The notes under the pieces: model-generated | Databases searched by the model: none | What the model saw: the letters and a program-made list of their open reading frames with translations, nothing else | What the model was told of the DNA's origin: nothing | Shown: positions 112 to 38,821 of the stretch, one piece after another | Position numbering within the stretch: position 1 is the stretch's first letter | Layout: every line of letters starts with the position of its first letter | From: Selaginella tamariscina | Lineage: Eukaryota > Streptophyta > Lycopodiopsida > Selaginellales > Selaginellaceae | Reading direction: 5' to 3' | DNA: 64,000 bases | NCBI GenBank assembly: GCA_003024785.1 | Contig: PUQB01000273.1 | Coordinates: 728,927 to 792,926, forward strand | Made by a program: the position numbers and the translations under genes

Positions 112-154
112 TTCTTTTTATAAATTTTTGTTGAGATAGTTAGAAATTAATGAA

Positions 155-11336: not shown

Positions 11337-13000
11337 TGTTGTGGTTTTTTAAAGTTAATATTATTTGTTAAAATTTACCTTTCTTTTTCCATAAAGAATA
11401 AGTGGATATCATTTTGAAAACCTACTTCATATTTCACTTTTAAACTTTTGAAAAAAGAAAGTAAATATATAATAATATATTTATACTATTTATTCAATAT
11501 TAAGAATATATGTTATTAGAGAACACCATATGTAATGTGGAAAACTGAAATTAAAGGAAGAAAAAAATTGAAAAATTTTTTAAAAAGTTGCGGCCCATGA
11601 TTGTTCAACTACTGTGTGTTGGCAAATAGTAACTTCAATGTAAAGGTTTGACGAGAAATAAATAAATTATCTCTCATTACATGCTTATATACATAGTTTT
11701 TTTGTTATTTCATTTGTTCTTATAGTAAAGTTATGACCTCTCGTATTTCCATACTTTTCTATGTTATTAATTTATGTTCTTTAGCATCATATTTATTTGT
11801 GTGTGGGTAATCACCGTGTAAATAGTCACATGATTGAGTTCAATATATGGCATGTGTATGTATACACATCAAGTCATGCTTTGTGTATAATTTGTAGATT
11901 TTGTGTCCAGGTTATACGCACATGCACATGCATTTTAATCGCTAAAAGAACAAGAGTTTTGAATAAGCCTTACATATAATCATAAATGTTAAAATAAAAA
12001 TATGTTATATGTTTGATAATAAAAATGGAAAAAAGTTATTTCTTAATATTTCATTGTTAGAAAGCCACTTAGAATATAACATTAAAAAATATGATTAACA
12101 CTTACCCATTCCTAATTAGGGTTATGATTGTATACCAAAAGCTCGTCCTCCTCTTGCCACGTTTCTCATGCGTATGTATGTGTATATGCATAGTTAACCA
12201 TAATATATACTATATTATATATAATAAAATGGTTATTTACTAATAGAAAAGCTGGCTACACTTGGTGTAATGCATATTGCATCGGCCCATTCAATGCACT
12301 TTTCTATAAAATATTACATTGGTTATTAATATAATCATTATACTGTACAGAATTATTTTAATAGTTAAGTATTAAAATAAAATCACTAGAAGATATTAAT
12401 GTAAATTTTCCATTGTACACCTGTTATTGGATACTTTTACTAGAAACATAAACCTATCAAAAAAGTTAATATATAAATTACTTTATATAGTAAATAATCT
12501 TTTATTTAAAAAAAGTAACTATATTTTTTTATTTATGATAGTTGTTCTTATTATGTATGTCTGTGTATACACGTGTTATGTATATGTGTGTACTAATATA
12601 TGCAATGTGTATGAATTTAATTTGTTAACACTCTTTTTCTTCTTTCATACATACACACCATGCATGATCCATATTAATATGTATTGTCTCTCTTCTCTCA
12701 AACATACACACTATGCATGATCCATAATATGTATTGTCACTCTTCTCTCATACATACACACCATGCATGATTCTGTACTCTGTCTCTTTAATATTAATAT
12801 GTACTAATATGTATGTATGTCTATGTGTATAATACTATGTGTGTATATATGTATCGTTGCTGTGACGTGAAACTTTAACACTCTCATGGACACACATGTT
12901 AAACCCTGCATGATTTTTATTCTTGGGGTGTATGTGATACACCCACGCACACGCACACGCTGATAATATAATGAAAGAATATTCGTTTAGGGCGAATTTA
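11337..13000. other. AT-rich intergenic stretch
   Basis: Contains short repeats of CATACACACCATGCATGATCC near 12650-12770 and microsatellites. Short open frames here are AT-rich and show no motif. I see no gene. Confidence 0.5.
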
Positions 13001-13004
13001 TAAT

Positions 13005-13170
13005 TTATTCTTTTTTAGGGTTTAAGTATATTCTTAGAAGGAATATTCGATTAGGGTTAATATATATTCTATTCCTTTTAGGATTTAGGTATATTCTTAG
13101 GGTTTCAAGAAGGCAGCGGAGGCGGTGGCTGGAAATCTCCTTCTCTCTCTCACACACAGGTGAGATCTCT
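13005..13170 (+). promoter_or_regulatory. Telobox-containing, leader-like segment beside the large palindrome
   Basis: Three TTAGGGTT/TAGGGTTT motifs (about 13015, 13050 and 13100) are followed by AAGGCAGCGGAGGCGGTGGC and a GT at 13160 (CACACAG/GTGAGAT). This resembles the start of a plant 5' leader exon with a splice donor. It could serve the decayed gene whose first visible exon is at 15033, but no transcript evidence is available. Confidence 0.3.
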
Positions 13171-13199
13171 CTCTCTCTCTCACGCACACTTTTTGAGTT

Positions 13200-13300
13200 T
13201 ATTTATTTATTTTTATTCACATATATATTATATGTGTGTGTATCTTAATAATATAATTTAGATATCTATCTCTCGCACACACACACACACTCGTATACAT

Positions 13301-13354
<54 letters not shown>

Positions 13355-13544
13355 TTGTGTATCTGTATAATTATATTAATTTATTAATTTTATCTCTTGC
13401 ACACGCACGCACACTCCTGTATAATTCTATTTATTTATCTATTTCTCACACACACACACCACTCCTGTATATATATGTGTGTGTGTGTGTGTGTTTATCT
13501 GTATGATTTTATTTGTTTCACACACTCATACACACGATATACAT

Positions 13545-13583
<39 letters not shown>

Positions 13584-13866
13584 CACCTATGTACATATAT
13601 ACATACATATATTATGTGTACTAGTATTTGTATAATTTTATTCATTTATCTATCTCTCACACACACCCGCACACTCCTATATATACATATACATATACAT
13701 ATATATGTGTGTGTGTGTGTATCTGTATAATTTAATTTATTTAGCACACACATACGATATACATATACATATACATATGTGTGTGTATCAGTATAATTTT
13801 ATCTGATTTATCTATTTCTGGCACACACACGCACTCTCCTACACACACATATACATACATATATTA

Positions 13867-13917
<51 letters not shown>
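13200..13917 (+). repeat. Left terminal satellite of CA/TA/GT blocks
   Basis: Units of very roughly 100-200 bp consist of a CA run, a TA run and a GT run, followed by TCTGTATAATTTTATTTATT, ATCTATCTCTCACACACAC and GCACACTCCTGTATATA. Several units are visible. The long open frames across this block are translations of the microsatellites and are not genes. Confidence 0.75.
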
Positions 13918-13918
<1 letters not shown>

Positions 13919-14745
13919 TGGCGGGATTAATCCTGCCGCCATTTCAGGTAGGTTATTCAGTTAGCCTTATGAGCGGCGGGATTAATCCTGCCGCTCATGA
14001 GGCTAACTGAAATCCCACCGCCTACACATGCCTTGCGCGGAATCTGGCGGGATTAATCCCGTCGGATTCCGCACAGGGCATTGGCGTTCGGCGGGATTAA
14101 TCTCACTGCCTAGGGTCTGAGTGAAGGGCCTGGGCGGCGGGATTAATCCCGCCGTGTACGCATGCCTTGCGCAGAATCGGGCAGGATTTATCCCGCCACT
14201 AAAGGCCTATTTGAAGGGCCTAGGCGGCGGGATTAATCCTGCCCGATTTCGCGTAGGGCATTGGCGTCCGGTGGGATTAATCCCGCCGCTAAAGGCCTGC
14301 CTGAAGGCCTAGGCGACGGGATTAATCTCGCCCAATTCCGCGCATGGCATTGGCGTCCGTAGGATTAATCCCGACGCTAGGGCCGAGTGAAGGGCCTAGG
14401 CGGCGGGATTAATCCCGAGCCTTCAATGCCTGTTGGAGGGATGAATCCCGCCACCCTTCCCTTTTTTCTCCATTGGTGAGTCGGACCAATCCCAAATGTT
14501 TCTTCTGAGACGTAGAAGGTTTACAACATACCAATGGAGGGACTGGGAAGGGTGGCGAGATTCATTTCACCATCCCTTACATGGTGGGCGAGATTAATCC
14601 CGCCGCCTTTCTGGAGCCACTGAAGGGGTGTGCCAAATAAATCCTGCCAAGTTCTCTTGAGACCGAGAAGGGTGGAGATTAATCCGCACTCCCGTTCAGG
14701 CCTTCAGAAAGGTGGCGAGATTAATCCGCCGCACCTTCCATGTGA
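13918..14745 (+). repeat. Left array of the 18-bp palindrome GGCGGGATTAATCCCGCC
   Basis: About 15 copies and variants occur at roughly 35-60-bp spacing, for example at 13921, 13975, 14045, 14091, 14135, 14225, 14270, 14401 and 14586. The constant core is GGGATTAATC with GC-rich flanks, set in GC-rich linkers such as GAAGGGCCTAGGCGG. Most copies are near-perfect palindromes able to form small hairpins or bind a dimeric protein. The array is much richer in GC than the rest of the element. Confidence 0.85.
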
Positions 14746-14844
14746 ATATATATGTGTATTAGTATATATAAGTTGCATATCTCATTTTATTTACTTTTAT
14801 CATCTTATCATAATATTTCGAGTAAAAGCTAGGAATCTATGTAA

Positions 14845-14931
14845 AACTGTCCAGAGCTCACATTTGTGGTGGTTCTAAAACGAAATGTTATCTTTCTTTT
14901 GCACTAGCACAAATGTGAGCTTTGGACAGTT
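14845..14931 (+). repeat. Hairpin conserved in both arms (left copy)
   Basis: AACTGTCCAGAGCTCACATT at 14845 pairs with AATGTGAGCTTTGGACAGTT ending at 14931. The stem is about 24 bp with a loop of about 39 bases. The right arm keeps the same stem at 30853-30942. Confidence 0.75.
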
Positions 14932-15032
14932 AATTCCGTCACTTCTCTCTGTGTATTATTTTTGTATATTCGGGTTTATACAAGTGTGTGTGCGTTTTTA
15001 TATGATTTGTATTCATAGTGTATTATTTTGCA

Positions 15033-18000
15033 GAAGGACGATTTAATTAAACAAGGAGATCGAGTCATTAGTATGGAGTCGTCGTCAAATTCTGGGTAAA
15101 ATTAAAATAAAATCTGTTATACTCGGATATGTGCTTGAACTAATCATTTTTGTATTCAGATGTGGAATTGAGGTGACATTAAAGACGAGAGCAGGAGAAG
15201 AGATGGGCAGGGGGATTCTGGAATCAACTTGGCCATATTTCAAACTAAATGGGAAGCGCATTGGAACAACCATGGTTGCTGTCAAACTAACCTCTGTCAC
15301 ATCGCATGGACAAGCAAAACAATGGAAAGTGGGTGTGCTAGTCAAGCATCCGAAAGCATGCTGAACCCAGATTGAACGATGCTCGACACATATGCCTTGT
15401 TCCATCCAATGTCACGTTCTCGGATCCAGAGGTGCCAGTTACAACATTAATTTCGGGTGGTTTGTCGACTTGTGGATAATGACGTTCACGTGTTCACTAA
15501 TGATGTTGACCTTGGAGTTCTTCTTCAACTCAACGAAAGCCCATCTATGGAGGGGATCCATCTGGATGTCTACTTCGAAGATCTTCAGACTCATCGAGTA
15601 GGTGTATTGTCAGGAGATATTGCTTCACAATACAGAAAATCACAAGTGGAGCAATCGTCCCTCTTCACATTGAAGAAGAACACAGCGACATCATAAGGAG
15701 ATTGAGAGGGTGGCTTGGTCTCAGGTTCTTTACAGATCACGTTCAATTTGCTTAGAAAATTTCGGGAGCTGGAAGAGTGTGCCGAGAACATTAGAACAGC
15801 ATCAATCGGGGATCACACATGTTGATTCGGATCGTAAAGAAAATCTTATCGTTTTGTCAGCTGCACCTGTGGCATCCCATGCTGCAATAAGCCACAAGGA
15901 AATGATGTTGGATGATAGGATTTACGAGTGTAGGGTTAAGTATTGCAGCGTCAACCCAAACTTCAATTACAGGCCACTCAACCAGGAACGTGTAGCTGAG
16001 CTCATGGAGAAGATGAAGGACGACAATTCTTACACCGTTCCACATAATGCTGTTTTGTGCCATACTACGAGAGAAACAAAGGCGCTGACAAAGTGTGGAT
16101 CACAACACCGGAACAAATGAGGAAGGTTCAGACGGAGAATAAAAATCATTAAGTACTACATCATTAGTGGCCAGCACACAATAACGGCAGCCCAACGACT
16201 TCTCGACGAACACAACAAAGGAACGATGGCAACAAAACTTTCCGAGCATACCCGTGAGAAGCTGACAAAAAGATCGGCGTTTTTAGCGAAGCCGAATCTC
16301 ACAATCGAGCAGTACCATAAGTTATCGGCGGAATGGGACGCTGCACAAACCACTACAACAGCAAAATATGGGAGAAGTTCAAACACACGCGAGCCGTGTG
16401 GGAATCTCTTCAGCGACCACAAAGAGCTACCGCAGGGAATACACAATCTGCGGACTACCGGGTAAGCAAATTGTTTGGGCGGGATTTATCTCGCCGGTAT
16501 ATTAATCTGTCTTTTTTCTCAGAGAGTTGAAGAAATTGTAGCAGTTGATTTTGCCCAGGTGGGCGGGAAGGAAACATCCTTTTTGATGATGTTGATTTCT
16601 TGTCCCGAGGATAGGATCTTTGCCAAATGGTTGGGGATTATGGAATCCTTTCAAAAGGAACACTGAAGAAGAAGCAGACAAGTGAAGGGAGCCCTCAAGA
16701 AGTCTGCAAAGAAACCCAGTAAGACGCCGAAGGCTAAGTCTGTTCAATCTATAAAGGATGTAGACAACGATTTCAAGCTCACATGGTTGAAGCCTTTAAA
16801 TGGAACAACGATGGAGGAGATGGAAGTCTTGGCTGATTTGGTGATTGATGGCAAATTACAGATTAATAACAGCAGCCCCACCTCTCCTTTTCATCTCAAG
16901 GCAATGGAGTTGAAGACGGTCAGGCACTTCAAGGAGTGGTTGGGAATACACTGCCACAAACTGGGTTGGACCTCGGCTTCAACATACGAAGAGGTCAGCA
17001 AATATTTGCATGTGACAAACGATGATATGCTTGTCGAATGGGTGAATCAATCGGAAGATCTGGGCAAGAATCTATTGCACGCCAACGCCAAAAGGAGAAC
17101 ATTGCGATGACGCCTTCTCTTATGGCAGTCCTTCAGCAGCGGAGAACCGAGTTGAACCTTATAAAGGAGGATGCTACGAATCACGACAAGCCCTACAGAT
17201 GTTTGTTGTTAGATTCGGAGACTTTATGGGGTACCATCACTGCTTGTAGGAAACCGTTTCAATTGTTCGTGATGGATCGGCGGGTGTCAAAAAATCCTTC
17301 GACAGACAGGACACTAGAGGATTTGGTGGAGAAACTTAGCCGTGCAAGCATGTACAAAGAAGGTATTTATTATTGAATTCATACTTGCACTCTTGACTGA
17401 TATCTACGTTTTCAGGTATTTATTTCTTGATTCTTGCTCATGTCACCGATACCTTTGCCTTCGCCTTTGCCAAGAGGAATAAACATCGTTGGACAGGATT
17501 TTATATGAATGATGCTGATCCGAAGTGCATTGATTCGGTTGTTCACTTGGTTGTTAGGAATGCGCCAAACAATTTCAAACTTCCAAATGACTGGCCAGGC
17601 ATCTGTTTGCACTCCAACGGCCCTGAACCTCCATCCGATACACCGATAGGTGAGAGTGACGTATTCGGCAATGTACGTTATCCAAACATACAAGTCAAGC
17701 GGCACGGAGCATCGTCAACTTGATCAGGGGTCCTCACAGTGATGCGTGGGTTTTTGACTACTGCACTAGGGGGTCCGTCTTGAAGGAGTGTTACCTTCGG
17801 ATACATGTGTGTTTGCCGTTGAAAAGGATAAGACCATGGTTGAGGACCTGAACAAGTGGATAGAGGTTCTCAACTGTACCCAACAAACCCATAAAGGAGT
17901 ATTTGAGAAAGTTCCCTCCGATAAGTGCGATAGCTCTGAAACGAATCTGGTTCAATGTCGGAGTCTGAGGACGAACTTCAATCAGATATTAGACCGGAAG

Positions 18001-18173
18001 TTATCTCGAGGAGTACAGAACATTCACACACTCCATTACCCATGGAAACATCAATAGAAGATGAAGATCTTGAACCATCTCACAAGCGGCTTAGACCTTC
18101 TTCGCCTCACTCAGAAGGTAATAGCGAAGAAGAATTGTTAATGAGTTTTAGAGTGACGAATAGTTGTAAATGA
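15033..18173 (+). pseudogene. ParB-like protein with possible methyltransferase-like C-terminal half (left-arm copy, decayed)
   Basis: Coding-like exons run across the segment with frame breaks. First visible pieces: 15033-15098 (GDRVISMESSSNS) and 15160-15360 (GIEVTLKTRAGEEMGRGILE). Around 15457-15650 lies VFTNDVDLGVLLQLNESP. A ParB-like part follows: RPLNQERVAELMEKMKDD (about 15970) and YIISGQHTITAAQRLLDEHN (about 16155). This recalls the ParB/sulfiredoxin fold, which has an R..N...V.EL helix and a later GxHR-type motif. An intron (about 16462-16520) contains one copy of the 18-bp palindrome. Later exons give LTWLKPLNGTTMEEMEVLAD (16770), LMAVLQQRRTELNLI (17119), HVTDTFAFAFAKRN (17440) and WVFDYCTRGSVLKE, then CVFAVEKDKTMVEDLNKWI (17750-17865). 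The last part resembles the Gly-rich SAM site and acidic strand of a DNA methyltransferase. It ends in a Ser/Glu-rich tail. The ParB call is moderate and the methyltransferase call is weak. Confidence 0.45.
16478..16495 (+). repeat. Isolated 18-bp palindrome copy inside an intron of the ParB-like gene
   Basis: GGCGGGATTTATCTCGCC differs slightly from the array consensus. The matching intron in the right arm keeps a related copy near 29670-29690 (GGCGAGATAAATCTTGC). It lies well outside the terminal arrays. Confidence 0.7.
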
Positions 18174-18299
18174 GTGTAACATAAGGCATTTTTGTATATT
18201 TCGTTTATATTTGTACAGAAAATAAATTCTCAAGGATTAATGAAGCTTTTAGTTCAAACATGGGTCACACATTAAAAGGTACCTTGATAATTTTAAGCT

Positions 18300-19482
18300 A
18301 TCATTTTGCAGATGTAATGAAACATTGAGAACATGGATTTTCAGCATTGCCATGAGGTAAGAGAGGGGTTTGGCGACAATTTCTTGTGCCACATGTCAGA
18401 ATGACAGAGTTCATGCAGGAAATGGATAATAATGCAGCTCAAAACATCGTTACCATGGGGGCCACTTCAGTTTTTTCATCATCATTTTTATTGGCTTCAG
18501 TTCCGAAATCAATTTCTTCAGCGCATGCAATATCTGAATCTTGTAAGGATGATGTACAATTAAATGATGAAGGGATAGGCAACGAGATAGTGCAACGGAT
18601 AAATGTGAAAGGGAGCAAACAAGTGATTTGCAAAGTATTCAAGAGGCAACGCTATCCATGTTACTCATGGCCATATTGTGTTGTTGGATGTCAATGGTGT
18701 TCTGCTTCATCGACAAAGGCCCGAGGATAGGAAAAAAGAAATCAAACAAGGAGATTTCATTCCTTGTCATGGTAAATTTCGATATGATATTATTTTTCGT
18801 CCAGGGTTGGATCGTCTCTTTCAAAAGCTTAAGGAGATGGGTGCGCTTGTGGGGATTTGGTCATGCATGCAGATTCATAACTTAACACCGCTGTTGAATT
18901 TACTTAAGAAACATTGTAGTGTTGCAGAAGAGGTAATTCGTAAAAAATTGGATTTTTAACTAACGAATATGTTATAAACCTCTCAAATTTTACAATATAA
19001 AAAAAGAAAGCAAGCCATACTTCTTGAAGAATGAAAGAATAATTGGGACTCATGGGGAGATGAATCGCTTAAGGATAATGAAGAACGCACAGATATTAGT
19101 GGTAGACAACTCTCCTCAGAAGGCTATGCTCAACTAAAACATTGCTTGTATTCATCCAATCACTTTCGACCCATATTCTGATACCGATATCATAGATGAG
19201 CTAATAAACTACTTGGATACATGCTTTAGAAAGAAGAATCTCGAAAACTTTTGTGAGCAATATCCACCGTATCAAACATTTCCTAAAGCTTTTCTTTCTC
19301 GTGATTTTGAATTTTATAAAATGAAGGATATCAACCGAGTGCTTTATAATATTATTCTTAAGGAACGTCAGTTTTTAGATGAGCCTTTATGTAGACCTTC
19401 TCTTATCACATCTTATGTATTAACAAGGATGGCAACTCCCAATTGCATTCGTGAGAGTGTTAGGTGGTGGCAACAACATTAA
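18300..19482 (+). pseudogene. FCP1/NIF-like (HAD) phosphatase, left-arm copy, decayed
   Basis: The core at 18660-18960 reads HIVLLDVNGVLLHRQRPE, then KFRYDIIFRPGLDRLFQK and MGALVGIWSCMQIHNLTPLL. This is the layout of an FCP1-type domain: first strand with catalytic Asp, RPGLDxL, then a W(S/T) motif. A second exon at about 19065-19482 gives AQILVVDNSPQKAMLN and NIACIHPITFDPYSDTDIID, matching the late D(N/D)SP motif of the family. The usual DxDxT signature is DVNGV, so the second Asp is Asn and the Thr is Val. Plant relatives with a changed motif exist, and activity is uncertain. A stop (TAA) after KAMLN replaces the CAA seen in the right-arm copy, and upstream exons are frameshifted. The gene follows the ParB-like gene in the same direction. 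Confidence 0.65.
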
Positions 19483-19891
19483 GATATTGACCAAAATGAT
19501 TCAATTAATCCGAAGAGTGATGGTTTAAATAAAATGAGAAGATTTCTCTGTATGATAAGAAAAAAGTATTTATAAAAAAATTAACATGTTGATAAGAAAA
19601 TGATTTCATTTGTAATTATGTTTGATAGTATTTCTTAATTATTGTAAACTATTTTTAGAATAATATGAATATTCTAAGATATTTTTAGGAATATTCCTTA
19701 CTAAGTAAGGTTATTGAAGGATTAATTAATTAATTAATTAATATTTAAGGCTTAATTACATATTAATTAAATGATTAATTAATAATTAAAACTTAAGTAT
19801 TAATTAGTAATTTATTTTATATTCCCAATTTCACGTATCATGCCCACTTTAGTTACAACGTGCATATGGCTTATTTGCCTTATTAGTTAAA
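19483..19891. other. AT-rich inner end of the left arm
   Basis: Low-complexity AATT-rich DNA mirrored at 26396-26760. It ends with CATGCCCACTTTAGTTACAA, a short motif that recurs in the loop. Confidence 0.6.
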
Positions 19892-20140
19892 TTGATAATT
19901 TCTATATATAACCTTCATCTAGGTGCTGATTGCAAATTGAATTTTGGTCTCCATGAGCTATTCTCAGTAGCAACACCATCAAATTCACATTATCTTTTAG
20001 AACATACCCATTTTTCATCTCTAAAACAAGAACCTGGAGTATTAAACTCCATGGATGTCCTTGCAACCACTTCTACTAATGTATATGATGCTTGTGTGAC
20101 TAATATGGTACGTGCTTGGAGAAGTTTGCAAAGATGGTAG
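19892..20140 (+). pseudogene. Unrecognised coding-like fragment in the loop
   Basis: An open frame includes LGADCKLNFGLHELFSVATP and VLATTSTNVYDACVTNMVRA. It is more balanced in base use than its AT-rich surroundings. There is no recognisable domain, no clear start and no partner exon. It sits between inverted copies of the TTAGTTACAACGTGCAT motif (19850 and 20514), so it may be a captured gene piece. Confidence 0.25.
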
Positions 20141-20513
20141 CATTTTTGGATGAAAATGGTATAGCACTAGTTTATAGTCCCCAAAGCTAGCATCAACGAC
20201 CCAATCATGCATTAGTTGTTCTTAGAAATGGCCTCTGAAATGGAATACTCTTTAAACATCATTATGCTAAAACAATGGCCATCATATAGCTCTAATGAAC
20301 CACAATTGACTTCTGAAGATAACTAGCTCCAGTGTTTGCTCTCTAGAAGATTTAGTTACACTTTAGTTACAACGTGCATCCTTCCTAGTATATAGATATA
20401 GTCTTAAGGGTACACCACCCTTGATAGTATATTGGCACCCGTGAGGGGTTATTTTGTATTCCAACCACTACTATAGTAATTGACTTTTTATAATCTTGCT
20501 ACTAGTCAAAAGA

Positions 20514-21870
20514 TGCACATTGTAACTAAAATGGGCATGCTATTGAAAATGGGAATATAAAATAATTATTAATTAATAGTTAAGTTCTAATTCTTAATTA
20601 ATTATTTAATAAATATATATTTAAATCTTTCTTTAAACAATTCTAAATAATATTTCTTTAATATTAAAAATATTAATTAATATTTAAAATTGCTAATATT
20701 ATTAAGAAATGGGATTATAGACATGCCCATTTTAGTTACAATGTGCATAAAGGCAAGCGAACACCTCCCTTCTAGCTCAAACTCTTGCACTCCCCAAATA
20801 TCCCTAGGTTCTAGAGGCACAAATCCACGTTTGCGTAGAGGCCAACCATCGTGTATCCCATACACCTTTGAGTGGGTCACTTGACTCTGGATCGAATCCC
20901 CAAAGTCAGACATTGGCAGCAACATCTTGGCAATCACCGAAGATGCCTACACTCAAAGCACCCCACACTTGGCATGGGAAGTCCTCGATGACCAAATATT
21001 TGGGGTGTTGGACATGCACTCTTATGCAATATCAATTACTTCAACCTTCATCTTTGGAGAGCAGCCATATCAATTCCATGATTCAAAGGATGTTTGTGGA
21101 CATTGATGTGCACATTTGCTCTTTGAAAGTTACTATTAAAGGTTAGAAAGATCATGTAGGAAATGCATTCATAAGATAACGTACCATGGGGAAACAAGAG
21201 GTAAATAGTCTATAGGAACACTTCTAAATAAGTTCATAAGAAATCCTTAGTAGTAGAAAAATTTTCAAGAGAAGAAATCATGTAAGGAAGTGTTAAAAGT
21301 AAGAAGTTAGGAGCATAGGCGAGAAGGTCTGTATGTAGCTTGAAAAGAAGGCTACATAGGAAGAAAATCATTATCGAGAGACTATGTACACATGCATATA
21401 TAAAAAGAATACATAAACATTTAAGATAATTGTTGTATAAAATTTAAAAACCATTAGATAAAATTTAAAAAGAGAAAAAAAAGGGAATGGAAGACTTGGA
21501 AGAAAAGGATGACATAGCAAAAGAGGAAAGTAGTTAAGAAGATAAGAAGGTAAGTAGAGCAAGGGAGAGGGAGTCTCCATGCTTGTTTTCTTGTGTTCAT
21601 GCTAGGAATTAAGGTGCATATTATAAGATTTTTTAATCCATTCTTGCCCTTGACTTTGGAAACTAGTCATTGTGACACCATAAAAAAGTGATTTAATATA
21701 TTATACAGTATACAAATGAAAAATGTTTAATATTTCTAAATTACAATGTGAAGGAACAAAGGTTTGTCAACAAACCTCAAGTGATATCACATTTTAAAGT
21801 TTTAAAATTCAACCCTTATGCGTGTTGTAACTAAAATAGGCATGTCTGTAGTCCCATTTCTTAATAATTA
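20514..21870. mobile_element. Small nested inverted-repeat elements sharing a TTGTAACTAAAATGGGCATG end
   Basis: The 20-base motif TTGTAACTAAAATGGGCATG or its complement appears at about 19845, 20355, 20518, 20728, 21825 and 26400. The pair at 20695-20752 and 21822-21880 extends to about 60 bp of inverted match (AAGAAATGGGATTATAGACATGCCC on the left, its complement on the right) and encloses 1.07 kb. Inside, 20882-21107 has an open frame with LAITEDAYTQSTPHLAWEVL and QIFGVLDMHSYAISITSTFI, which I cannot identify. This looks like a family of short-TIR elements or fragments that moved within the loop. Confidence 0.5.
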
Positions 21871-24125
21871 ACAATTTTAGTTATTTAATTAACATTTTCT
21901 AATATTAAAGGAATATTCTTTAGAATAATATTTATTAAAAAAAAAATTCTTTAGAATATATGTTTGAAGACAAAATATTCTTTAGAATATTTTATTTTTG
22001 TAATTGACCCTTTAATAAATTATAACATTCATGAATTAAAAATTAATAACATTATAAAAGTAGAAGGTATTAATTATATAATATATTATATTTAAGACTG
22101 TATGGGCCTAATATAAAAATTATTAAAGAGCATTACATTATATAAATATTTATGTTGTTATTAAAATACTAATATTTAAATATAACATTGATTAAAAATT
22201 TGTATTAGTAATAATAATATATATATAAAATCTTATATAGTCAATCTTCCATATTTTTTTATAAATTTATATAGTTAAGTAAACAATTTGGTACTATTAT
22301 TAAAGAGTTTATTATAATTATGAATATTAAATATATTATATTTTATAATTTTGTAATTGCTTTAAGCTTCAGAAAATATATATTCTTTTGCAGTTTTATT
22401 AATCGTGATTTTATCAATGCTTCTTAATATCCACCCATATCGAATGGATTTAACATTTATAAAACATGTTGGGTCTTTTTAATTGAGAAACCATATTTTC
22501 TTTAAGCATCCATTATATTTTTTGCTCTTCTTCTCATGTCGCTTTTTTTTGTGGTTTGAACCATAGAACCTTTACCATACGGTTTTTTTATAATAACTTC
22601 ATGTGTATCAATAATTTGACCCATCCAAATGGGTTGGTTATATAACACATGTGGAGTAATAAGAATGATCATCAGTTTTTAAAAGATCCTTATAACAATC
22701 AAAGTATGATTTAGGTTTTTGGTTTCGTTGTTCAACAAAGTGTGAAGTTTACACTTCCACATCACTACTGGCTTCTATGTCGTCTGCGCTCATTGATGTT
22801 ATTTTAATTTCCTCTTGCCACCTTGTTTTAGACCAAAAAAAGTGTTGTAATTCTTTACTTATGTTAATAAACCCTTCTAACTCTCGAACAATAGTTTCTC
22901 AATAATTAACCACATACTTATATAATTTTGAGTAACCAGTTGCCTTATCAAAATTCTTTGGCATTAATTTTTAAACCCATGTCACATATTTTTTAATGCC
23001 ATAAATTAATAATAAGCTCTTATTCCTTGAGTTGGGCACTTAATAAAATAAGGTCTAGTTGTCTTTCTAGGAGAAGTGGCTTTCCATCTTTTCCACTTTT
23101 GAAGAGCATTAAGCCCTCTTTTGGTGACCAATCTTGTTTTGATGGCTGTAACTTATACTACATAATAGGTATACTATCTCTTATGAAGAAAAAGAATTAT
23201 AGTGGCACAAGGTGACTAGTTAAAGAATCGCTCCCTTCTTTAATATACTCCTTGAGAAACTTTTTGAAATCTAGCACCTTAGTCATAAACAAAGCATAAA
23301 TTTTTTTGGAGATGCAATTTTTAAAAAGATCCATCATATGTGGTAAGGTAAGTGAACTTGTCCTTTTTGTAGAGTTGAAGACCTTACTAAAGAATGCATT
23401 AATATCTTATCAACCATAAGGAAACTAAGCGTGATTGTCTCAAACACACCTTTGGCAACAAGCATTGACAAGTATGCTAGTACATATCTAGAAAATAGAA
23501 GTATGAGCTTGAGAAACCCTTAAGTAAAATGACTTATTTTTATTCTCGCCTGCCAAAGTAAATGACAAGGAAGCTTATTTGATGTTGAAGACACATGTAC
23601 ACTATGTGAGCTAAATCCTTCCACTAAACCAAAACTTTCAACATGGCCATTTATTTTTTGTGCAGGCTGTTTGCAATGCCTCTCATATTCCCAAGTAGTC
23701 TTAAGTGCAGATGTGCTTATGAGAGCATTATGTAAAGGTTAAAGGTGTTGTTTCTTTACTTTAAGATCACTTATATGATTTGTTTGTAAGTGGGCTTCAA
23801 GGTTTCTGAAATACATAGCCAATGACTTAATAGTGAAATTGAAGTCACTAGACCAATGTGGAAGTGAAAAGTGTCTTAAACGTGTCCATGTGTTAGCACA
23901 CATGTTAATGAAATCGGAATTTTTAAACATTCCCAAGGCACTTTAGTGTTGCAATGAGCTTTGGAATGTTGGTCTTTAAGTGATCTATCTTGTCATGGAT
24001 CAAGCACAGGTATTTTGACGGACGTGACACAGAAAGCATGCGGTGTGCACACAGAAAGCATGTGGTATGCATAGAACTAGTGCATAGCATGTTGAGGTTC
24101 TTGGAATGGAATTTGAAGAGGGTTC
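21871..24125. other. AT-rich loop DNA with a possible decayed minus-strand coding remnant
   Basis: From 21880 to 22390 the sequence is very AT-rich. From about 22390 to 23960 base use is more even, and the minus strand reads stop-interrupted coding-like phrases such as LFKSGKDGKPLLLERQLDL and LPHWSSDFNFTIKSLAMYF. The pattern suits an old transposase or captured gene, but no catalytic motif is visible and I do not assign a family. Confidence 0.25.
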
Positions 24126-24140
24126 CAAAAGTTTAAAATA

Positions 24141-24573
24141 TATCAACTTGTATTAATCAAGCATGAGAATCTATACTTATATATAATTATATATTATTGC
24201 ACATGCATATATATTAAGCACCCTCGATTCATATTTTATTGCATATTGCATAAACAAATGTCATAAGTGACACAATTATTTTATGTGCAAGACAATATGT
24301 TTAATACTGGAAATAAAGTATATCTTTTTCAGAACAATGAGATAGTTGGCAACTTCAACATGCTATGCACCTTAATAGTTCTAGTGCCAACTATCTTGTT
24401 GTTCTGAAGAAGATATATTTTATCTCCAGTATTAAACATATTGTTCTGCACATAAATAATTGTGTCACTTATGATATCTATTTATGAATCAAGGGTGCTT
24501 AATATATATGCATGTGCAATAATATATAATTATGTATAAGTATAGATTCTCATGCTTGATAATACAAGTGATG
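24141..24573. mobile_element. Foldback MITE, ~200-bp inverted halves
   Basis: The left half (CTTGTATTAATCAAGCATGA, then AGAATCTATACTTATA, then GACACAATTATTT, then AGATAGTTGGCA) is mirrored by the right half ending ATTCTCATGCTTGATAATAC. A loop of about 30 bases lies near 24345-24395. There is no coding capacity. It lies directly beside the loop's 18-bp palindrome array. Confidence 0.8.
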
Positions 24574-25395
24574 GTGGGATTAAACACCCTTCTCCACCTT
24601 TTAGAATGGTGGCAGGATTAATCCGCTCATAATTCTCTCCCACAAGGAAGAGGTGACATGATTAATCATACCCCAACTCTCTCCGTGGGGAGAGGTCGGC
24701 GGGATTAATCCTCATCCATTCTCCTATGGAGAAGAGTGGCGGGATTAATCCGTCCATAATTCTCTCCGACGGGGAAAAGGTGGCAGGATTAATTCCGCCA
24801 ATGCTTCTCACCTAGAATTGGTGGTGGGATTAATCTCACCAATGCTTCCTTGCTTCCTAAAATTGGTGGTGAGATTATGAAGCATTGGTGAGGTTAATTC
24901 ATTTCCTAAAATGGTGGGCGTGATTACATATTAGCTTGTATGATGCCATTTGGGAAACTACTTTAGGAGTTTAGATCATTAGATTGCACTAGAATTCGTT
25001 AAGGATTTATCTCGTTCACATCTTTTTTAATTAGAATTTTCATTCGCCGAGATTTCAGAGAGATTCTTGATGGGGTGGCAAGAATAATCCTGCTAGTTGC
25101 TTGCCTCCTAAACTAGTGAGCGTGATAAATCTTGCACACAATTTTTTAAAACATGGAAGAGGTGGCAAGATTAATCCCGCCCCAAACTTTTTGAAATTAA
25201 TTCCGCAGCTCTAATCTGTTTCAGAAACTTGTGGGCGGGATTAATCTTGCTGCCCTTTCTAAAAGGTGGAAGCATTGGTTGGATTAATCCGTCACCTTTT
25301 CCCGCTTCAGAGAGTTGTGGCGGAATAATCCCTTTGACCATTTTAACAAACGGAAAATGAATGGTCGAATTAATTCTGCCATCCCATTGAGACTC
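24574..25395. repeat. Loop array of diverged 18-bp palindrome copies
   Basis: At least 12 variants of GGCGGGATTAATC(C/T)CGCC occur, for example at 24606, 24655, 24696, 24735, 24781, 25151, 25232 and 25277. They alternate with linkers such as TTCTCTCCCACAAGG. Copies are more degenerate than in the terminal arrays. The array is off the centre of the palindrome (about 23.1 kb), so it is a separate array and not the fold point. Confidence 0.75.
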
Positions 25396-26395
25396 TTTAA
25401 GATCTGACTAACCGAGAATTTTAAGTAAATGATGTGTAAATGGGATAAATTTCTAATGAAATCCTAATGAATTCCTAAACCTAAATTCTAATTTTAAAAT
25501 ATAAGAGAGTGAATCTTTATAAGTATTTCTAAATTTGTCTATAATACTTGTAAACAATACAAAGGGCGCCGTACTTTTTTATAAACAATAGCACCCAATT
25601 TAAGTGTTGCTCTTGAGGTGATTATTAAGGAAAGAGAAGATTAAAGAAGAAAATTATAAAAATGAAAAACTTTCCAAGAGAAAGACACATATGTGAATTT
25701 AAGTGGAAATTAAAAACATTTTCAAATTTTACATGTCAAACCAACAATATTTATGTCAAATTTCAAATTTTTAAAAATAAAATAAAATTTAAGATGAGTT
25801 GACACAAATAATCAACTTTCTGATATATAACTCTCGATTCCAATAATTTTTATAAATTGCATTTAATGTATTTAACATTAAGATTCAAGCTATTTAATTA
25901 TAAAAATTTTAGTATTATTCTAATTCTTATTATTCCAGTATATATTATTAAGTATATTATAAATATATACTTATACAATAGATAATGATATATTCATTAA
26001 ATGATGTATCATTTAAAATATATTCATAATGTGTATTTAATTTTTTTTATTATTATTCGAGTAATTATTCTACATTTTTTAATATTAATGGGATATTTTA
26101 ATTATTTTCTTATTATTTCAAGAATAATTCAATATTAACCTGATTATCTTAATTAAATTAGTATATAATAATATTCTTAATTATTCAAGTAATTATTCTA
26201 CATATGTTTATAATAATGGGATTTTCTCAATTATTTTCTTATTAAAGAATATTCCAATATTAAACCTTATTATCAATATTAATTAATACATATTATTAAA
26301 ATATATATTATTATGCATAATTTAAAATATGTTCATAGTGTGTATATTAATATTATTTTCACTTTAATTCAATGTTTCTTTAGTACACATATATG
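25396..26395. other. AT-rich loop segment
   Basis: Runs of A/T with short repeats such as TTATTTTCTTATTA. I see no gene or structured element before the right arm begins. Confidence 0.6.
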
Positions 26396-26759
26396 CACGT
26401 TGTAACTAAAATGGGCATGATACGTGAAAATGGGAATATAAAAAAATTGCTAATTAATACTTAAGTTTTAATTATTAATTATTTAATATATGTAATTAAG
26501 CCTTAAATATTAATTAATCTTCAATAACCTTACTTAGTAAAGGAATATTCTAAAATATTTTAAATATTCATATTATTCTTTGTTCTAAAAATGGTTTACA
26601 ATAATTAAAATACTATCAAACATAATTACAAACGAAATCATTTTCTTATCAATATGTTTAATTTATTTATAAATACTTTCTCCTAACCATATAGAAATCT
26701 CCTCATTTTGTTTAAATCATTACTCTCCGAATTAATCGAATCATTTTGGTAATATCTTA

Positions 26760-27835
26760 ATGTTGTTGCCACACCTAACACTCTTACGAATGCAGTTAAG
26801 AGTTGCCATCCTTGTTAATACATAAGATGTGATAAGATATGCTTAAAGGTTCATCTAAAAAATAAATTCCTTAAGAATAATATTGTAAAGCGCCTGGTTG
26901 CTCTCATTCATTTTATAAAATTCAAAATCATGAGAAAAAAGCGTCAGGAAATGTTTGATATGGTGGATACTGCTCACAAAAGTTTTCAAGATTCTTCTTT
27001 CTGAGGCACGTATCCAAGTAGTTCATTAGCTCATCCATGGTATTTGTATCAGAATATGTGTCGAAGTGATTGGATGGATCAAGTAATGTTTTGGTTAAGC
27101 ATAGCCTTCTGAGGAGAGTCGTATACCACTAAGATATATGTATTCTTCATTATCCTTAATGATTGATCTCCCATGAAGCCCAATTAATCTTTCGTTCTTG
27201 AAGAATTATGGTTTGCTTTCCTTTTTTATATTGTGAAATTCGAGAGGTTTATAACATATTCGCTAGTTAAAATTCAATCTTTACGAATCACCTCTTCTGC
27301 AACACTACAATGTTTCTTAAGCAAATTCAGCAGCGATGTCAAGTTGTGAATTTGCATGCATGACCAAATCCCCATAAGTGCATCCATCTCCTTAAGCTTT
27401 TGAAAAAGATGGTCCAACCCCAAACAAAAAATGATATCATATCGAAATTTACCATGACAAGGAATGAAATCTCCTTGTTTGATTTCTTTTTTTCCTCGGA
27501 CCTTTGTTGATGAAGCAGAACACCATTGACATCCAACAATACAATATGGCCATGAGTAACAGGGGTAGCATTGCCTCTTAAATGCTTTGCAACTCACTTG
27601 TTTGCTCCCTTTCACATTTATTTGTCGACATTATATCATTGCTTATCCCTTTATCATTTAATTGTACATCATCCTTACAAGATTCAGATATTGCAGGTGT
27701 TGAAGAAAGTGATTTAAGAACTGAAGCCAATAGAAATGGTGATGAAAAAACTGAAGTGGTCCATGGTAACGATGTTTTGAGTTGCATTATTATCCATTTC
27801 CTAATGAACTCTATCATTCTGACATGTGGCACAAG
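26760..27835 (-). pseudogene. FCP1/NIF-like (HAD) phosphatase, right-arm copy, decayed
   Basis: Inverted partner of the 18300-19482 gene. The minus strand reads LLDVNGVLLHQQRSE, then KFRYDIIFCLGLDHLFQK and MDALMGIWSCMQIHNLTSLL, and near 27100 ILVVYDSPQKAMLNQNI. Here Gln stands where the left copy has a stop, but the late motif has changed from VVDNSP to VVYDSP and the RPGLD segment reads CLGLD. Upstream frames (to 27832) encode a Ser-rich stretch with VFSSPFLLASVLKSLSS. Later exons are frameshifted. The two copies therefore carry different lesions and neither looks functional. Confidence 0.65.
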
Positions 27836-28059
27836 AAATTTTTGCCAAACCCTCTCTTACCTCATGACAATGCTAAAAATCCATGTTCTCAACTGTTTCA
27901 TTACATTTACAAAATGATAGTTATATCAAGGTAACCCTGTTAATGTGTGACCTATGTTTGAATAAAAGCTTCATTAATCCTTGAGAATTTATTTTCTGTA
28001 CAAATATAAACAAATATACAAAAATGCCTTATGTTACACTCATTTACAACTATTCGTCA

Positions 28060-30717
28060 CTCTAAGAATCATCTTCGCTATTTTCTGAGTGAGGCAAAGA
28101 AGGATTTAGCTACTTGGTAATCGTTCATGATCTTCCGTATCTTTTGTTGATGTTTCCATGGGTAATGGTATGTGATGTTCTGTACTCCTTGAGATAACTT
28201 CCGGTTTAATATCTGATTGAAGATCGTCCTCAGACTCCGACATTGAACCAGATTTCTTCAGAGCTATCGCACTTCTTGGGAGGGAACTTTTCCAATACTC
28301 TTGTATGGGTTTGTTGGAGTAGTCAGTTGAGAACCTCTCTATCCACTTGTTTAGGTCCTCAACCATGGTCTTATCCTTTTCAACAGCAAACACACATGTA
28401 TCTCGAAAGTAACACTCCTTCAAGACGAACCCCCTAGTGTAGTAGTCAAAAACCCATGCATCACTGTGAGGACCCCTGATCAAGTTGACGATGCTCCGTG
28501 CCGCTTGACTTGTGATGTTTGGATAACGTACATTGCCGAATATGTCCTCTCAGCTATCGGTGATCGGATGGAGGTTTATGTCCATTGGAGTGCAAATAGA
28601 TGCCTGGCCAATCATTTGGAAGTTTAAAATTGTTTGGTGCATTCCTAACAACCAAATGAACAATCGTATCAATGCACTTGGATCAGCATCATTCATATAA
28701 AGCCTATCCAATGATGTCTATTCTTCTCGGCAAAGGCGAAGGCAAAGTATCGATAACATGAGCAAGAATCAATAAATAAATACCTAAAAAATAGGTATCA
28801 GTGAAGAGTGCAAGCATGAATTTAATAATAAATACCTTCTTTGTACATGCTTGCACGGCTAAGTTTCCACCAAATCCTCTAGTGCCCTATCTGTCGAAGG
28901 ATTTTTAACACCCGCCGATCCATCACGAACAATTGAAACGGTTTCCTACAAGCAGTGATGTTACCATAAGTTCTGAATCCAACAACAACATCTGTAGGGC
29001 TTGTAGCATCCTTCTTTATAAGGTTCAACTCGGTTTTCTGCTGCTGAAGGACTGCCATAAGAGAAGGCGTCATCGCAATGTTTTCCTTTTTGGTTAGCGT
29101 GCAATAGATTCTTGCCCAGATCTTTCGATTGATTCACCATTGGACAAGCATATCATCGTTTGTCACATTCAAATATTCGTTGACCTCTTCGTATGTTGAG
29201 GCCGAGGTCCAACCTAGTTTGTGACAGTGTATTCCCAACTACTCTTGAAGTGCCTGACCGTCTTCAACTCCATTGCCTTGACATGAAAAGGAGAGGTGGG
29301 GCTGCTGTTGTTAATCTATAGTTTGCCATCAATCACCAAATCAGCCAAGACTTCCATTTCCTCCATCATTGTTCTATTTAAAGACTTCAACCATGTGAGC
29401 TTGAAATCGTTGTCTACATCCTTTGTAAATTAAACAGACTTAACCTTCTATGTCTTACTGGGTTTCTTTGTAGACTTCTCCTGAAGGCTCCTTCACTTAT
29501 CTGCTTCTTCCTTTTGCAAAGATTCCATAATACCAACCATTTGGCAAAGATCTTATCCTCGGGGCAAGAGATCAACATCATCAAAAAGGATGTTTCCTTC
29601 CTGTCCACCTAGGCAAAATCAACTGCAGCAATTTCTTTAACTCTCTGAAAAAAAAGAGACAGATTAATATACTGGCGAGATAAATCTTGCTAAGACATTT
29701 ACTTACCCAGTAGTTTGAACATTGTTCTTTCCCTGTAGTAGGTCTTTTGGTCGCTGAAGATTTTCCCACACGGATTGCGTGTGTTTGAACTTCTCCCATA
29801 TTTTGCTGTTGTAGTGGTTGGTGTCGGTAGCGTCCCATTCCGCCAATACCTTATGGTACTGCTCGATTATGAGATTTGGTTTAGCTAAAAATGCTAATCT
29901 TTTTGTCAACTTCTCATGGGTATGCTCGAAAAGTTTTATTGCCATCGTTCCTTATTGTGTTCATCAAGAAGTTGTTGGGCTACCGTTATTGTGTGCTAGC
30001 CACTAATGATGTAGTACTTGATTGATTTTCTATTCTTCATTTGAATCTTCGTGATTTGTTCTGGTGTTGTCTCCTACACTTTATCAGTGCCTTTCTTTCT
30101 TTCATAGTATGGGCACAAAATAGCATTATGTGGAACGGTGTAAGAATTGTCGTCCTTCATCTTCTCATGAGCTCAGCTACACGTTCCTGGTTGAGTGGCA
30201 TGTAATTGAAGTTTGGGTTGACGTTGCAATACTTAACCCTACACTCATAAATCCTATCATCTAGGATCATTTCCTTGTGGCTTATTGCAGCATGGGATGT
30301 CACAGGTGCAGCTAACAAAACGATAAACAATTTTCTTCTGTGATCTGAATCAATATGTGTGATCCCGACTGCAACTGTTCTAATGTTCTCGCACACTCTT
30401 CTAGCGCCCGAAGATTCCTAAGCAAATTGAACGTGATCTGTAAAGAACCTAGAACCGAGCCACCCTCTCAATCTCCCTAATGATGTCACGTGTTCTTCTT
30501 TAATAAGAAAGAGGACAATTGCTCCACTTGTGGATGTTCTGTATTGTGAAGCAATATCTGCTGAGAATACACCTACTCGATGAATATGGAGATCTTCGAA
30601 GTAGACATCTAACTGGATAACCTTTATAAATGGGCTTTCGTTGAGTTGAAGAAGAACTCCACGGTTAACATCATTAGTGAAAACGTGAACGTCATTATCT
30701 ACAAGTTGACAAATCAC
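28060..30717 (-). pseudogene. ParB-like / methyltransferase-like gene, right-arm copy, decayed
   Basis: Inverted partner of 15033-18173. Pieces in order on the minus strand: VFTNDVNRGVLLQLNESPF (about 30660), YECRVKYCNVNPNFNYMPLN and QERVAELMRR (30160-30260), LMAVLQQQKTELNLIKKD (29060), and an open frame 28106-28483. That frame has WVFDYYTRGFVLKECYF, CVFAVEKDKTMVEDLNKWIE and an acidic tail LKKSGSMSESEDDLQSD. The tail is in frame here but shifted in the left copy. The first two exons seen on the left (15033-15430) are absent: the flanks of that segment are joined directly near 30745. Multiple frame breaks make it a pseudogene copy. Confidence 0.45.
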
Positions 30718-30852
30718 CCGAGATTAATGTTGTAACTAGCGAATGCAAATCATATAAAAACACACACACACTTGTATAAACCCGAATATACAAAATTATT
30801 ACACAGATAAATTCACATACACCCTCTTTGTCTCAGAGAGAAGTGGATGGGA

Positions 30853-30942
30853 TAAACTATCCAAAGCTCACGTTTGTGCTAATGCAAAAAACTGATAACA
30901 TTTGGTTTTAAAACCATCACAAATGTGAGCTTTGGATAGTTT
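30853..30942 (+). repeat. Hairpin conserved in both arms (right copy)
   Basis: AAACTATCCAAAGCTCACGT pairs with ATGTGAGCTTTGGATAGTTT ending at 30942. The stem matches the left copy at 14845-14931, while the loop sequence has diverged more. Confidence 0.75.
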
Positions 30943-31039
30943 CACATAATTTACTAGCTTTTATTCAAAATATTATGATAAGATGATAAAAGTAAATAAA
31001 ATGAGATATGCAACTTATATATACTAATACATATATATT

Positions 31040-31930
31040 CATATGGAAGGTGGGGCATGATTAATCTCGCCACCCCTTCTATGCCTCCTGAAAGGGTGGG
31101 CGGGATTAATCTCGCCACCCTTCTCGATCCTCTGAATGGGTGTGCGGGATTAATCTCGCCATTGGTCACAGAGAGAACTGGTTGGGATTTATTTAACACA
31201 TCCATTCAAGGGAAAGAGAAGGGTGACGGGATTAATCTCGCCCACCATGGAAGGGATGGTGGAATTAATCTCGCCACCCTTCTCAGTCCCCTGAACTAGT
31301 GTATGGTAACCCTTCTCCGTCTCAGACAGAAGTTGTCGGGATTGATTTAGCTCACCAATTCAGGAGAGAGAGAAGGGTGGCGGGATTAATCCCGCCACCC
31401 TTCCATGCCTAGTGAGCGGGACTAATCCCGCCCATGACACTCTCATTTGGATAATGGCAGTTGGCAGGATTAATCTCGCCACCCCTTCTATGCCTGGTGA
31501 ATTAATCCTTATACCATTTTCACGCCTCCTCAGAGGGACGGCGAGATTAATCTTGCCACCAGGCATAGAAGGGTTGGCAGGATTAATCCCGCCGCCCATG
31601 GGCTGTGCAGAGTGTGGCGGGATTAATCTTGCTGCCCTCTTGTAAATCATGCGCACACACATATATATATGGAGGAGTGATTAATCCTGCTGCCCTTTGT
31701 GCAGGCATGGGCGGCGGGACTAATCCTGCTGCCCAGGCCCTTCATGCAAGTCATGAGCGGTGGGATTAATCCCGCCTCCCATGACCTGCGCAGAGGGCTT
31801 GCGTGAATGGTGGCGGGATTAATTCCGCTACTCATGACCTGCGTGAAGGGCCTGGGTGGCGGGATTAATCTCGCCGCTCATGACTTGTGTGAAGGGCAGT
31901 GGGATTAATCTCGCCGCCCAGGTGTTAATC
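31040..31930 (-). repeat. Right array of the 18-bp palindrome
   Basis: About 20 copies and variants occur, for example at 31057, 31099, 31379, 31465, 31578, 31616, 31763, 31813 and 31858. Spacing and GC-rich linkers resemble those of the left array, including GAAGGGCCTGGG. Open frames reading through this array are artefacts of the repeat. Confidence 0.85.
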
Positions 31931-31934
31931 CCAC

Positions 31935-32014
31935 GCACACACATATATGCATATGTATATATGAGAGTGTGCGTGTGTGCTAGAGATAGAAAAAACAATA
32001 AAATTATACAGATA

Positions 32015-32079
<65 letters not shown>

Positions 32080-32616
32080 GGATATGTATATCATGTGTGT
32101 GTGTTGTGTGCAAAATAAATTCAATTATACAGATACACACACATATATATATGTGTATAGGAGTGTGCATGTGTGTGCCAGAGATAGATAAATCAATAAA
32201 ATTATACACATACACACACATATGTATATATATGTGTATATATGTATATTGTGTGTGTGTGCTAAATAAATTTAATTATACAGATACACACACATAATAT
32301 ATGTATGTATATATGTGTATATAATATATACAGGAGTGTGCATGTGTGTGCCAGAGATAGATAAATCAATAAAATTATACACATACACACACACATATGT
32401 ATATATATGTGTATATATGTATATTGTGTGTGTGTGCTAAATAAATTTAATTATACAGATACACACACATAATATATGTATGTATATATGTATATATATA
32501 TATACAGGAGTGTGCATGTGTGTGCGAGAGATAAAATTAATAAATTAATAAAATTATACAGATACACACACATAATATATGTATGTATATATGTATATAG
32601 GTATATATATATGTGT
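31935..32616 (-). repeat. Right terminal satellite of CA/TA/GT blocks
   Basis: Reverse complement of the left satellite type. Units contain CAGGAGTGTGCATGTGTGTG, CAGAGATAGATAAATCAAT and AAAATTATACA between CA, TA and GT runs. It stops at the LTR boundary 32616/32617. Confidence 0.75.
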
Positions 32617-33224
32617 TGTTAACCTGTAATTTCCTACCCTCCGTACGTCGATAGGATTGTTGTCGATAAACCCGTACTAAGGGTCTACCGGATTAAGATA
32701 AAGATGTGATCAAACATCAGAAAGTCAGGAAAAGGGTAAGGATGGCAAGGTGTATAGCAGGTAGCAGTACTATGATCCCGTCACAGTATTAAAAAATAAG
32801 AACAGTATACTACATCATAGAAATACCGGTAGAAGATAGACGTATTGAGAGAGAAAGGAAACTTATATTATGTCCGCGCACGGTACATGATACAAAAGAA
32901 TAGTATACTCGGATACCCTTCTAGTCCTAAACTGGTCTATTATACCCCGTACTCTAGTCCCGTACTAGCAGTTATTATAACTGCCTCCTAGCCTTATCCC
33001 TTCAGTTACTGTAACTCCTTCTTATCCTTATCCATGAATGCCGTACTTCGCTGATATCGTATTGCGGTGATGACCCGTATTGTGGTATTGCATTAATAAC
33101 TCGTACTCCGATATATCCTTCCCACTCTCGGTTTTCCACAATATATATTGTTTTTGATATTTTCCCATTATATTGCCCATGAAATAACAAGAAATTCTAC
33201 TAATGTCTAACTATGCTCCTAACA
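32617..33224 (-). repeat. 3' LTR of the 32.6-40.0-kb element
   Basis: On the minus strand it starts TGTTAGGAGCATAG right after the polypurine tract AGTCTGGGGGGA (33225-33236) and ends GGTTAACA. It is about 608 bp. The matching 5' LTR was not found in the window. Confidence 0.8.
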
Positions 33225-33264
33225 TCCCCCCAGACTAGAAGTGTTGCATCACCCCGATGCAACC

Positions 33265-36433: not shown

Positions 36434-36443
36434 GCAGTATGGC

Positions 36444-38819: not shown

Positions 38820-38821
38820 TC

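Follow-up and report, generated by a model that had tools for sequence, protein, structure and literature searches.

A giant inverted repeat in Selaginella tamariscina as the probable by-product of nested and neighbouring copies of a 13.4–13.9-kb DNA-transposon family

What kind of structure underlies a palindrome of some 19 kb whose two arms carry genes? The question is raised by a 64,000-nucleotide stretch of the Selaginella tamariscina assembly (contig PUQB01000273.1, positions 728,927 to 792,926 of the forward strand), hereafter the window. A first-pass annotation had described positions 13200 to 32616 as a 19.4-kb palindromic unit resembling a mobile element, with a unique loop between its arms and without a transposase. 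The palindrome is very probably a by-product of three nearby pieces, here called L, X and R, of one large DNA-transposon family, and an ordinary outcome of copies inserting into and next to one another. L, on the plus strand, is the 3′ part of a young copy; X, close by on the same strand, is the 5′ part of an old one. R, the 3′ part of an old copy, would have been attached in reverse orientation to internal sequence of X, most probably by insertion, and later cut by a Ty3/gypsy element. The dispersed family, both of its ends with 4-bp duplications in two copies, the X–R junction, the age gap between the pieces and the decay of R are established. Mobile DNA is involved, as had been proposed, but the mobile unit is not the 19.4-kb palindrome.

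The inverted arms are real and well above chance. Self-comparison of the window pairs 15434–19867 with 30740–26391 in an alignment of 4,474 columns that is 88.1% identical (80 gap openings, E=0), and the match extends outward into hairpin, array and satellite, the array blocks being 54–64% identical. Aligned over 4,314 bases, the arm core differs by 416 substitutions; 17 gaps fall in L and 50 in R. The description of two gene-bearing arms with the same module order is confirmed by this comparison, as are the hairpins (z-scores of -8.0 in L and -8.5 in R; 0 of 200 shuffles fold equally well) and the arrays, in both arms, of the 18-bp palindrome GGCGGGATTAATCCCGCC. Both inner edges terminate in the 27-bp motif ATGCACRTTGTAACTAAAATGGGCATG, and the ends of a 236-bp miniature element carry it too. 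The outer edges and the loop did not hold up. On the left, L can be aligned to other copies from 12552, not from 13200; on the right, position 32616 adjoins the 3′ long terminal repeat (LTR) of a Ty3/gypsy element (33224 to 32617; TGTTA...TAACA, with a purine tract ahead; final base placed by eye). A further copy of this LTR was not found within the window. Nor is the loop unique, since 21818–24049 and 25408–26392 correspond to 1–2232 (84%) and 4502–5543 (76%) of C302, a full copy of the element described below, and it holds a palindrome array of its own at 24572–25293.

The search for further copies with defined ends and target-site duplications, as the first-pass annotation had proposed, was decisive. 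With the core of the left arm as query, the 300.7-Mb assembly yielded at least 69 matches (34 of 3,679 candidates scored), the right arm not being among the matches listed; 41 rows were kept and 28 short ones dropped, and 23 of those kept, the window's own counted, are near full length. Twenty copies were fetched with their flanks and, because they were chosen near the top of the match list, the identity figures below are biased upward. All 19 displayed copies (the twentieth, L024, was not displayed) stop at ...GCAT and continue into copy-specific flanks, while upstream each of the 14 displayed extends beyond the start of L at 12552. The opposite end, the B end, was read in the next upstream stretch of two copies, C1248 (13,916 bp, duplications ACAT/ACAT) and C302 (13,357 bp, duplications ATAG/ATAG). 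Both begin with the B-end terminal repeat, both have terminal inverted repeats of 27 bp (2 and 3 mismatches), and in both the flanking match is no longer than 4 bp. The true unit is a DNA transposon of 13.4–13.9 kb that ends in inverted repeats of 27 bp and duplicates 4 bp of its target site. It runs from the B end through a DUF7869 gene on the opposite (minus) strand, palindrome array 1, an AT-rich spacer and a leader with CCCTAAA repeats, and then through a satellite, palindrome array 2, a hairpin, gene 1 (plus strand) and gene 2 to the A end. None of the 20 fetched copies has the boundaries of the palindrome; the boundaries shared instead are 19865/26393, in 19 of 19 displayed copies, and 21818, in both copies read that far. 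The pieces and their parts are arranged in the window as follows.

12552–19865, plus strand: L, 3′ part of a young transposon copy, B half missing; 97.5–98.6% identical to 18 of 20 copies; ends at GTGCAT
13214–13916, plus: CA/TA-rich satellite in L, from self-comparison
13917–14740, plus: palindrome array 2 of L (GGCGGGATTAATCCCGCC, spacing about 44 bp)
14845–14931, plus: hairpin of L (z -8.0; self-inverted match)
15037–18120, plus: gene 1 of L, resembling ParB and N4/N6 methyltransferases by eye; open frames, natural frames in other copies
about 16461–16522 and 17363–17415, plus: putative introns of gene 1 of L, by eye
18627–19482, plus: gene 2 of L, NIF/FCP1-type HAD phosphatase-like (PF03031)
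19839–19865, plus: A-end terminal inverted repeat of L
20513–20748, plus: 236-bp miniature derivative with both element ends, AAAG on either side
21818–26392, plus: X, 5′ part of an old copy, from matches to C302
21818–21844, plus: B-end terminal inverted repeat of X
22752–23816, minus: decayed DUF7869 (transposase-like) gene in X (PF25273)
24572–25293, plus: palindrome array 1 of X; C1248 and C302 have an array at the equivalent position
26393–32616, minus: R, the reversed 3′ part of an old copy; its A-end base is directly next to X
26393–26419, minus: A-end terminal inverted repeat of R
26774–27590, minus: gene 2 remnant of R
28118–30740, minus: remains of gene 1 in R, lacking the 5′ exons
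30854–30942, minus: hairpin of R (z -8.5)
31050–31950, minus: palindrome array 2 of R
31950–32616, minus: satellite of R
32617–33224, minus: 3′ LTR of the Ty3/gypsy element cutting R, last base by eye

Placed on C302, L covers 6062–7200 (window 12552–13736) and 6899–13357 (13545–19865), and R covers 13357–8907 in reverse (26393–30742), with more pieces to about 6948. X starts 1.95 kb beyond L. Its alignment to C302 runs to 26392–26394, the start of the terminal repeat of R, so that the terminus of R marks the junction and directly adjoins internal sequence of X. The same kind of contact, an A end lying against internal sequence of a further copy, is found at three other places, C1015 (inverted), C740 (direct) and C984 (inverted). 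There the neighbours are separate copies, because their contents overlap.

The pieces differ in age. Without gaps, 18 of the 20 copies are 97.8–99.8% alike, while L028 and L029 form a subfamily that is 95.4–96.8% identical to them. L is 97.5–98.6% identical to the 18 and 95.8% to the other two; R is 87.7–89.5% identical to all 20 and 89.0% to L; X is 87.8% identical to C302 over 2,174 bases. An excess of changes at CG and CHG sites is the mark expected of plant-type methylation. R has decayed in this manner, with a CG/CHG bias, and L has not: C-to-T type changes relative to the copy L013 affect 68/285 CG, 58/280 CHG and 130/1275 CHH sites in R, as compared with 9/310, 9/293 and 23/1348 in L. 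The corresponding counts for X relative to C302 are 18/56, 25/85 and 122/629. From the sequence alone, such decay, the CCCTAAA repeats of the leader and exons in the window that look ABP1-like and MSH5-like by eye point to a plant genome.

Several observations weigh against the account in terms of three separate pieces. The alignment of X to C1248 ends earlier than that to C302, at 26369, and X (element positions 1–5543) and R (about 6948–13357) share no content. The recurrence at C1015, C740 and C984 is one of adjacency alone, and the insertion of R is inferred from a single junction, its far end and the target-site duplicate having been lost to the gypsy cut. The B end is known from just two copies.

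Given that X and R have no element sequence in common, they might alternatively be the two parts of a single old element in which an inversion had reversed the 3′ half in situ, for instance when its own A end made an abortive insertion into its interior; this variant concerns R only. The similar ages of X and R (about 89% for the latter) would agree with such an event, and we consider it possible, though distinctly less probable than the joining of separate copies. An inversion with its breakpoint on the exact terminal base needs a transposase, and abutting copies that overlap in content, and are hence separate, do occur at the three other places. A fold-over, or inverted duplication, of one shorter element had also been suggested, and the common module order of the inverted arms speaks for it; it is nevertheless very improbable, given that L is 97.5–98.6% identical to 18 of 20 copies but 89.0% to R, that strong CG/CHG decay is seen in R and not in L, and that the arms differ in extent, L being alignable from 12552. 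No more credit can be given to a new class of giant element with the 6-kb arms as terminal inverted repeats, even if the terminal repeats of Sola transposons vary widely, from 11 to 1124 bp, in the available part of one account (PMC10741241): the outer ends are common to no examined copy, the right end is an LTR junction, and the two full copies have terminal repeats of 27 bp instead of 6 kb. An assembly artefact is just as implausible despite the likelihood of residual 1-bp indel errors, for the arms differ by about 11% where an artefactual fold-back would be expected to be near identical, copies lie on many contigs, and both read-through copies carry 4-bp duplications.

Between the copies L013 and L014 there are 28 indels (21 of 1 bp) as compared with 12 substitutions, and indels exceed substitutions in other near-identical copies as well, which suggests that the assembly carries residual indel errors; many of the frameshifts may accordingly be assembly errors. 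For the same excess of 1-bp indels, the notion that the arms are wholly dead pseudogenes was dropped. An old inverted duplication of host genes with a miniature element at its inner edge was overturned by the genome search, and alternative-transposition models were considered and dropped.

The miniature element at 20513–20748 is built from the two unit ends, which its bases 1–112 and 114–236 match at 88% and 84%. Nearby, CCTT stands right after a 21-bp A-end copy at 20359–20379 and again just before the B end of X at 21818. This matching pair of 4-bp sequences, reversed in order, could be a coincidence or the trace of a rearranged insertion. Inside X, a 424-bp foldback at 24146–24569 (81% self-inverted overall, outer arms 97%) looks like a separate miniature element.

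The claim that no transposase was present did not survive the search of X, where the minus-strand remnant at 22752–23816 matches DUF7869 (PF25273, E=4.4e-8; in read-through it scores 33.4 bits, the cut-off being 26). In the genome the domain has at least 300 matches (150 of 4,249 candidates scored), each listed row lying above the cut-off, and a control gave none in 14 genomes; on contig C361, the domain is divided over two neighbouring open frames, 650 and 373 codons long, with 54 bases between them. Nine public relatives are 35–49% identical. The alignment conserves DKMD in 10 of 10 sequences, DN in the 9 of 9 reaching it and GHTHED[IV]D in the 8 of 8 reaching it, and by eye these motifs may represent a DDE/DDD triad. 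The structure model of one relative is middling (predicted local distance difference test score, pLDDT, 51), fold searches with a DUF7869 homologue had no match in Foldseek at E<=0.001 and none but weak rows in VIA, and the term DUF7869 was not found in the literature searched. The autonomous unit would move by cut-and-paste, the DUF7869 protein acting on the 27-bp termini, and the same action would also mobilize the 236-bp miniature form.

In gene 1, motifs resembling those of ParB and of N4/N6 methyltransferases (VNPNFNYRPLNQERV...YYIISGQHTITAAQRLL; VFDY.TRG.VLKECY...VFAVEKD) were spotted by eye ahead of any comparison with the Ectocarpus element discussed below. Against such an assignment, Pfam searches matched gene 1 to no family of ParB proteins or methyltransferases, and their matches to other families are at chance level; the read-through has one weak PHROG match, to a virion structural protein (61 residues, E 7.6e-4), and the structure model is poor (mean pLDDT 32). 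No homologues of the read-through products of genes 1 and 2 were found at E<=1 and E<=0.01 among 5.8 billion proteins, and a scan of viral contigs for gene 1 gave 0 matches.

Codon changes were counted in the frames open in L029. Between L029 and L013, gene 1 differs at 29/27/67 first, second and third codon positions, with 56 synonymous and 56 nonsynonymous changes and 0 stop codons; comparisons of L029 with L018, L010 and L, which are not independent, give a similar pattern. Between R and L013 the figures are 97/95/113, with 60 synonymous and 165 nonsynonymous changes and 16 stops (Fisher tests of the two pairs: synonymous share, p 3e-5; stops, p 0.004). Gene 1 was thus constrained during the split of the subfamilies and R then decayed freely, a contrast that shows purifying selection on gene 1 between subfamilies. 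Weighing against selection, pairs within the main family have no third-position excess (L013 with L023, 10/10/6; L026, 9/12/9; L027, 7/1/5; L012, 8/9/12), the exception being L013 with L (3/2/12); this is as expected for recent neutral change. For gene 2, the 0 synonymous and 3 nonsynonymous changes between L029 and L013 are too few to judge selection. Between L and L013 (15890–19479), the gene 2 exon differs at 25/384 bases and gene 1 at 17/2,523, hinting at mosaicism or gene conversion between subfamilies.

Gene 2 itself matches the NIF phosphatase family (PF03031) with E=9.9e-7 from the letters of the window and 2.6e-11 in read-through, while a PDB sequence search returned weak rows for C-terminal-domain small phosphatases only (E 0.5–0.8). 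Its product may act on RNA polymerase II or on chromatin, which is a guess.

The palindrome arrays were characterized from 67 units of the two full copies, anchored on ATTAAT alone, with array limits chosen by the author from the unit alignment. The six bases on each side of ATTAAT carry 0.8–1.6 bits and those farther out 0.04–0.6 bits, and 40 of 63 spacings measure 40–46 bp; the 18-mer is conserved and the spacers are not. Because the half-sites are complementary only slightly above expectation (inner six pairs, 312 observed against 294.5 expected from the columns; seventh pair, 34 against 24.2), the signal looks as if sequence, more than hairpin folding, had been conserved. The units are related by duplication and are thus not independent. 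Scans of viral contigs found the palindrome in 1 contig and the terminal inverted repeat in 0.

Bacterial ParB proteins bind short palindromic sites, often clustered, in the ParB–parS systems. The candidate sites described here are likewise clustered short palindromes, although the site sequence differs. As regards target sites, Mutator-like elements generate a 9-bp duplication, in contrast with the present unit, both full copies of which have no match longer than 4 bp.

The closest published match found, in the available part of its description, is Sola1-1_Ec32, a giant 21.5-kb DNA transposon of Ectocarpus in which the gene opposite the transposase encodes ParB-like and N4/N6 DNA methyltransferase domains; similar proteins are known from transposons of green and red algae (PMC12477816). 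In the present unit, too, gene 1 lies opposite the DUF7869 gene and has ParB-like and methyltransferase-like motifs by eye. On a comparison of descriptions, the unit differs in its size of 13.4–13.9 kb, in its plant-like nuclear genome and in having a NIF-type phosphatase gene and two palindrome arrays, neither of which is mentioned for Sola1-1_Ec32 in the available part of that account (PMC12477816). Sola elements have terminal inverted repeats, 4-bp target-site duplications and a DDD transposase, sometimes exceed 15 kb and are present in the moss Physcomitrella (PMC10741241). Like Sola-1, the present family has terminal inverted repeats (27 bp, 2 and 3 mismatches) and 4-bp duplications, ACAT and ATAG in both full copies and AAAG at the miniature form. 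In size class, duplication, strand layout and motifs by eye the unit fits a giant Sola-1 with a ParB-methyltransferase gene, and it thus works like one; we do not file it as one. Abutting copies of one transposon family have a parallel in the multimers of KolobokP, in which tandem or abutting copies of one family occur, although Kolobok targets TTAA, unlike the ACAT and ATAG duplicated here (PMC9587614, as far as available). No land-plant ParB-methyltransferase transposon was found in the literature searched, and no wider claim of its being unpublished is made.

The product of gene 1 would be an accessory protein. Our best guess, by analogy with Ectocarpus, is that its ParB-like part recognizes the two palindrome arrays and its methyltransferase-like part modifies the element's own DNA. 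It is tempting to speculate further, but tentatively, that this is a land-plant transposon with self-recognition, in which the ParB-like half of gene 1 would bind the GGCGGGATTAATCCCGCC arrays, the methyltransferase half would mark the DNA and the phosphatase would alter transcription or chromatin, all three jointly countering CG/CHG silencing; we think this more doubtful than probable. Were it true, the palindromes would be a eukaryotic counterpart of clustered ParB sites, and they could also hold both ends of the 13-kb element together for transposition.

Irrespective of that speculation, a false giant palindrome is replaced by a defined, recently amplified transposon family, and the copy-rich setting ties the DUF7869 protein to defined transposon ends. 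If gene 1 does encode a ParB-methyltransferase, a kind of accessory protein described for transposons of brown, green and red algae in the available part of PMC12477816 would be extended to a plant-like genome, the arrays would become candidate binding sites that make the idea of self-marking testable, and there would be evidence of selection keeping the accessory gene.

The Ty3/gypsy element at 32617–40030 has a 3′ LTR and pol; no 5′ LTR was found in the window, and by eye the element seems to be cut near 40030. No Rfam families and no tRNA were found. A weak self-inverted repeat of 1.07 kb (68%) lies in the left flank at 10495–11565, and inverted minisatellite blocks (53061–53715 and 56127–56746, 78%) stand on either side of a Ty3/gypsy-like gag region. 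Direct repeats of 68% identity at 41136–42301 and 51391–52640 recur near 2950–3620, reversed, and in the flank of the C1248 element, and belong to a dispersed repeat family. Two host genes recognized by eye, an auxin-binding-protein-like (ABP1-like) gene and a MutS (MSH5-like) gene whose MutS domain V is confirmed by Pfam, occupy the spans 5160–6720 and 43640–47700.

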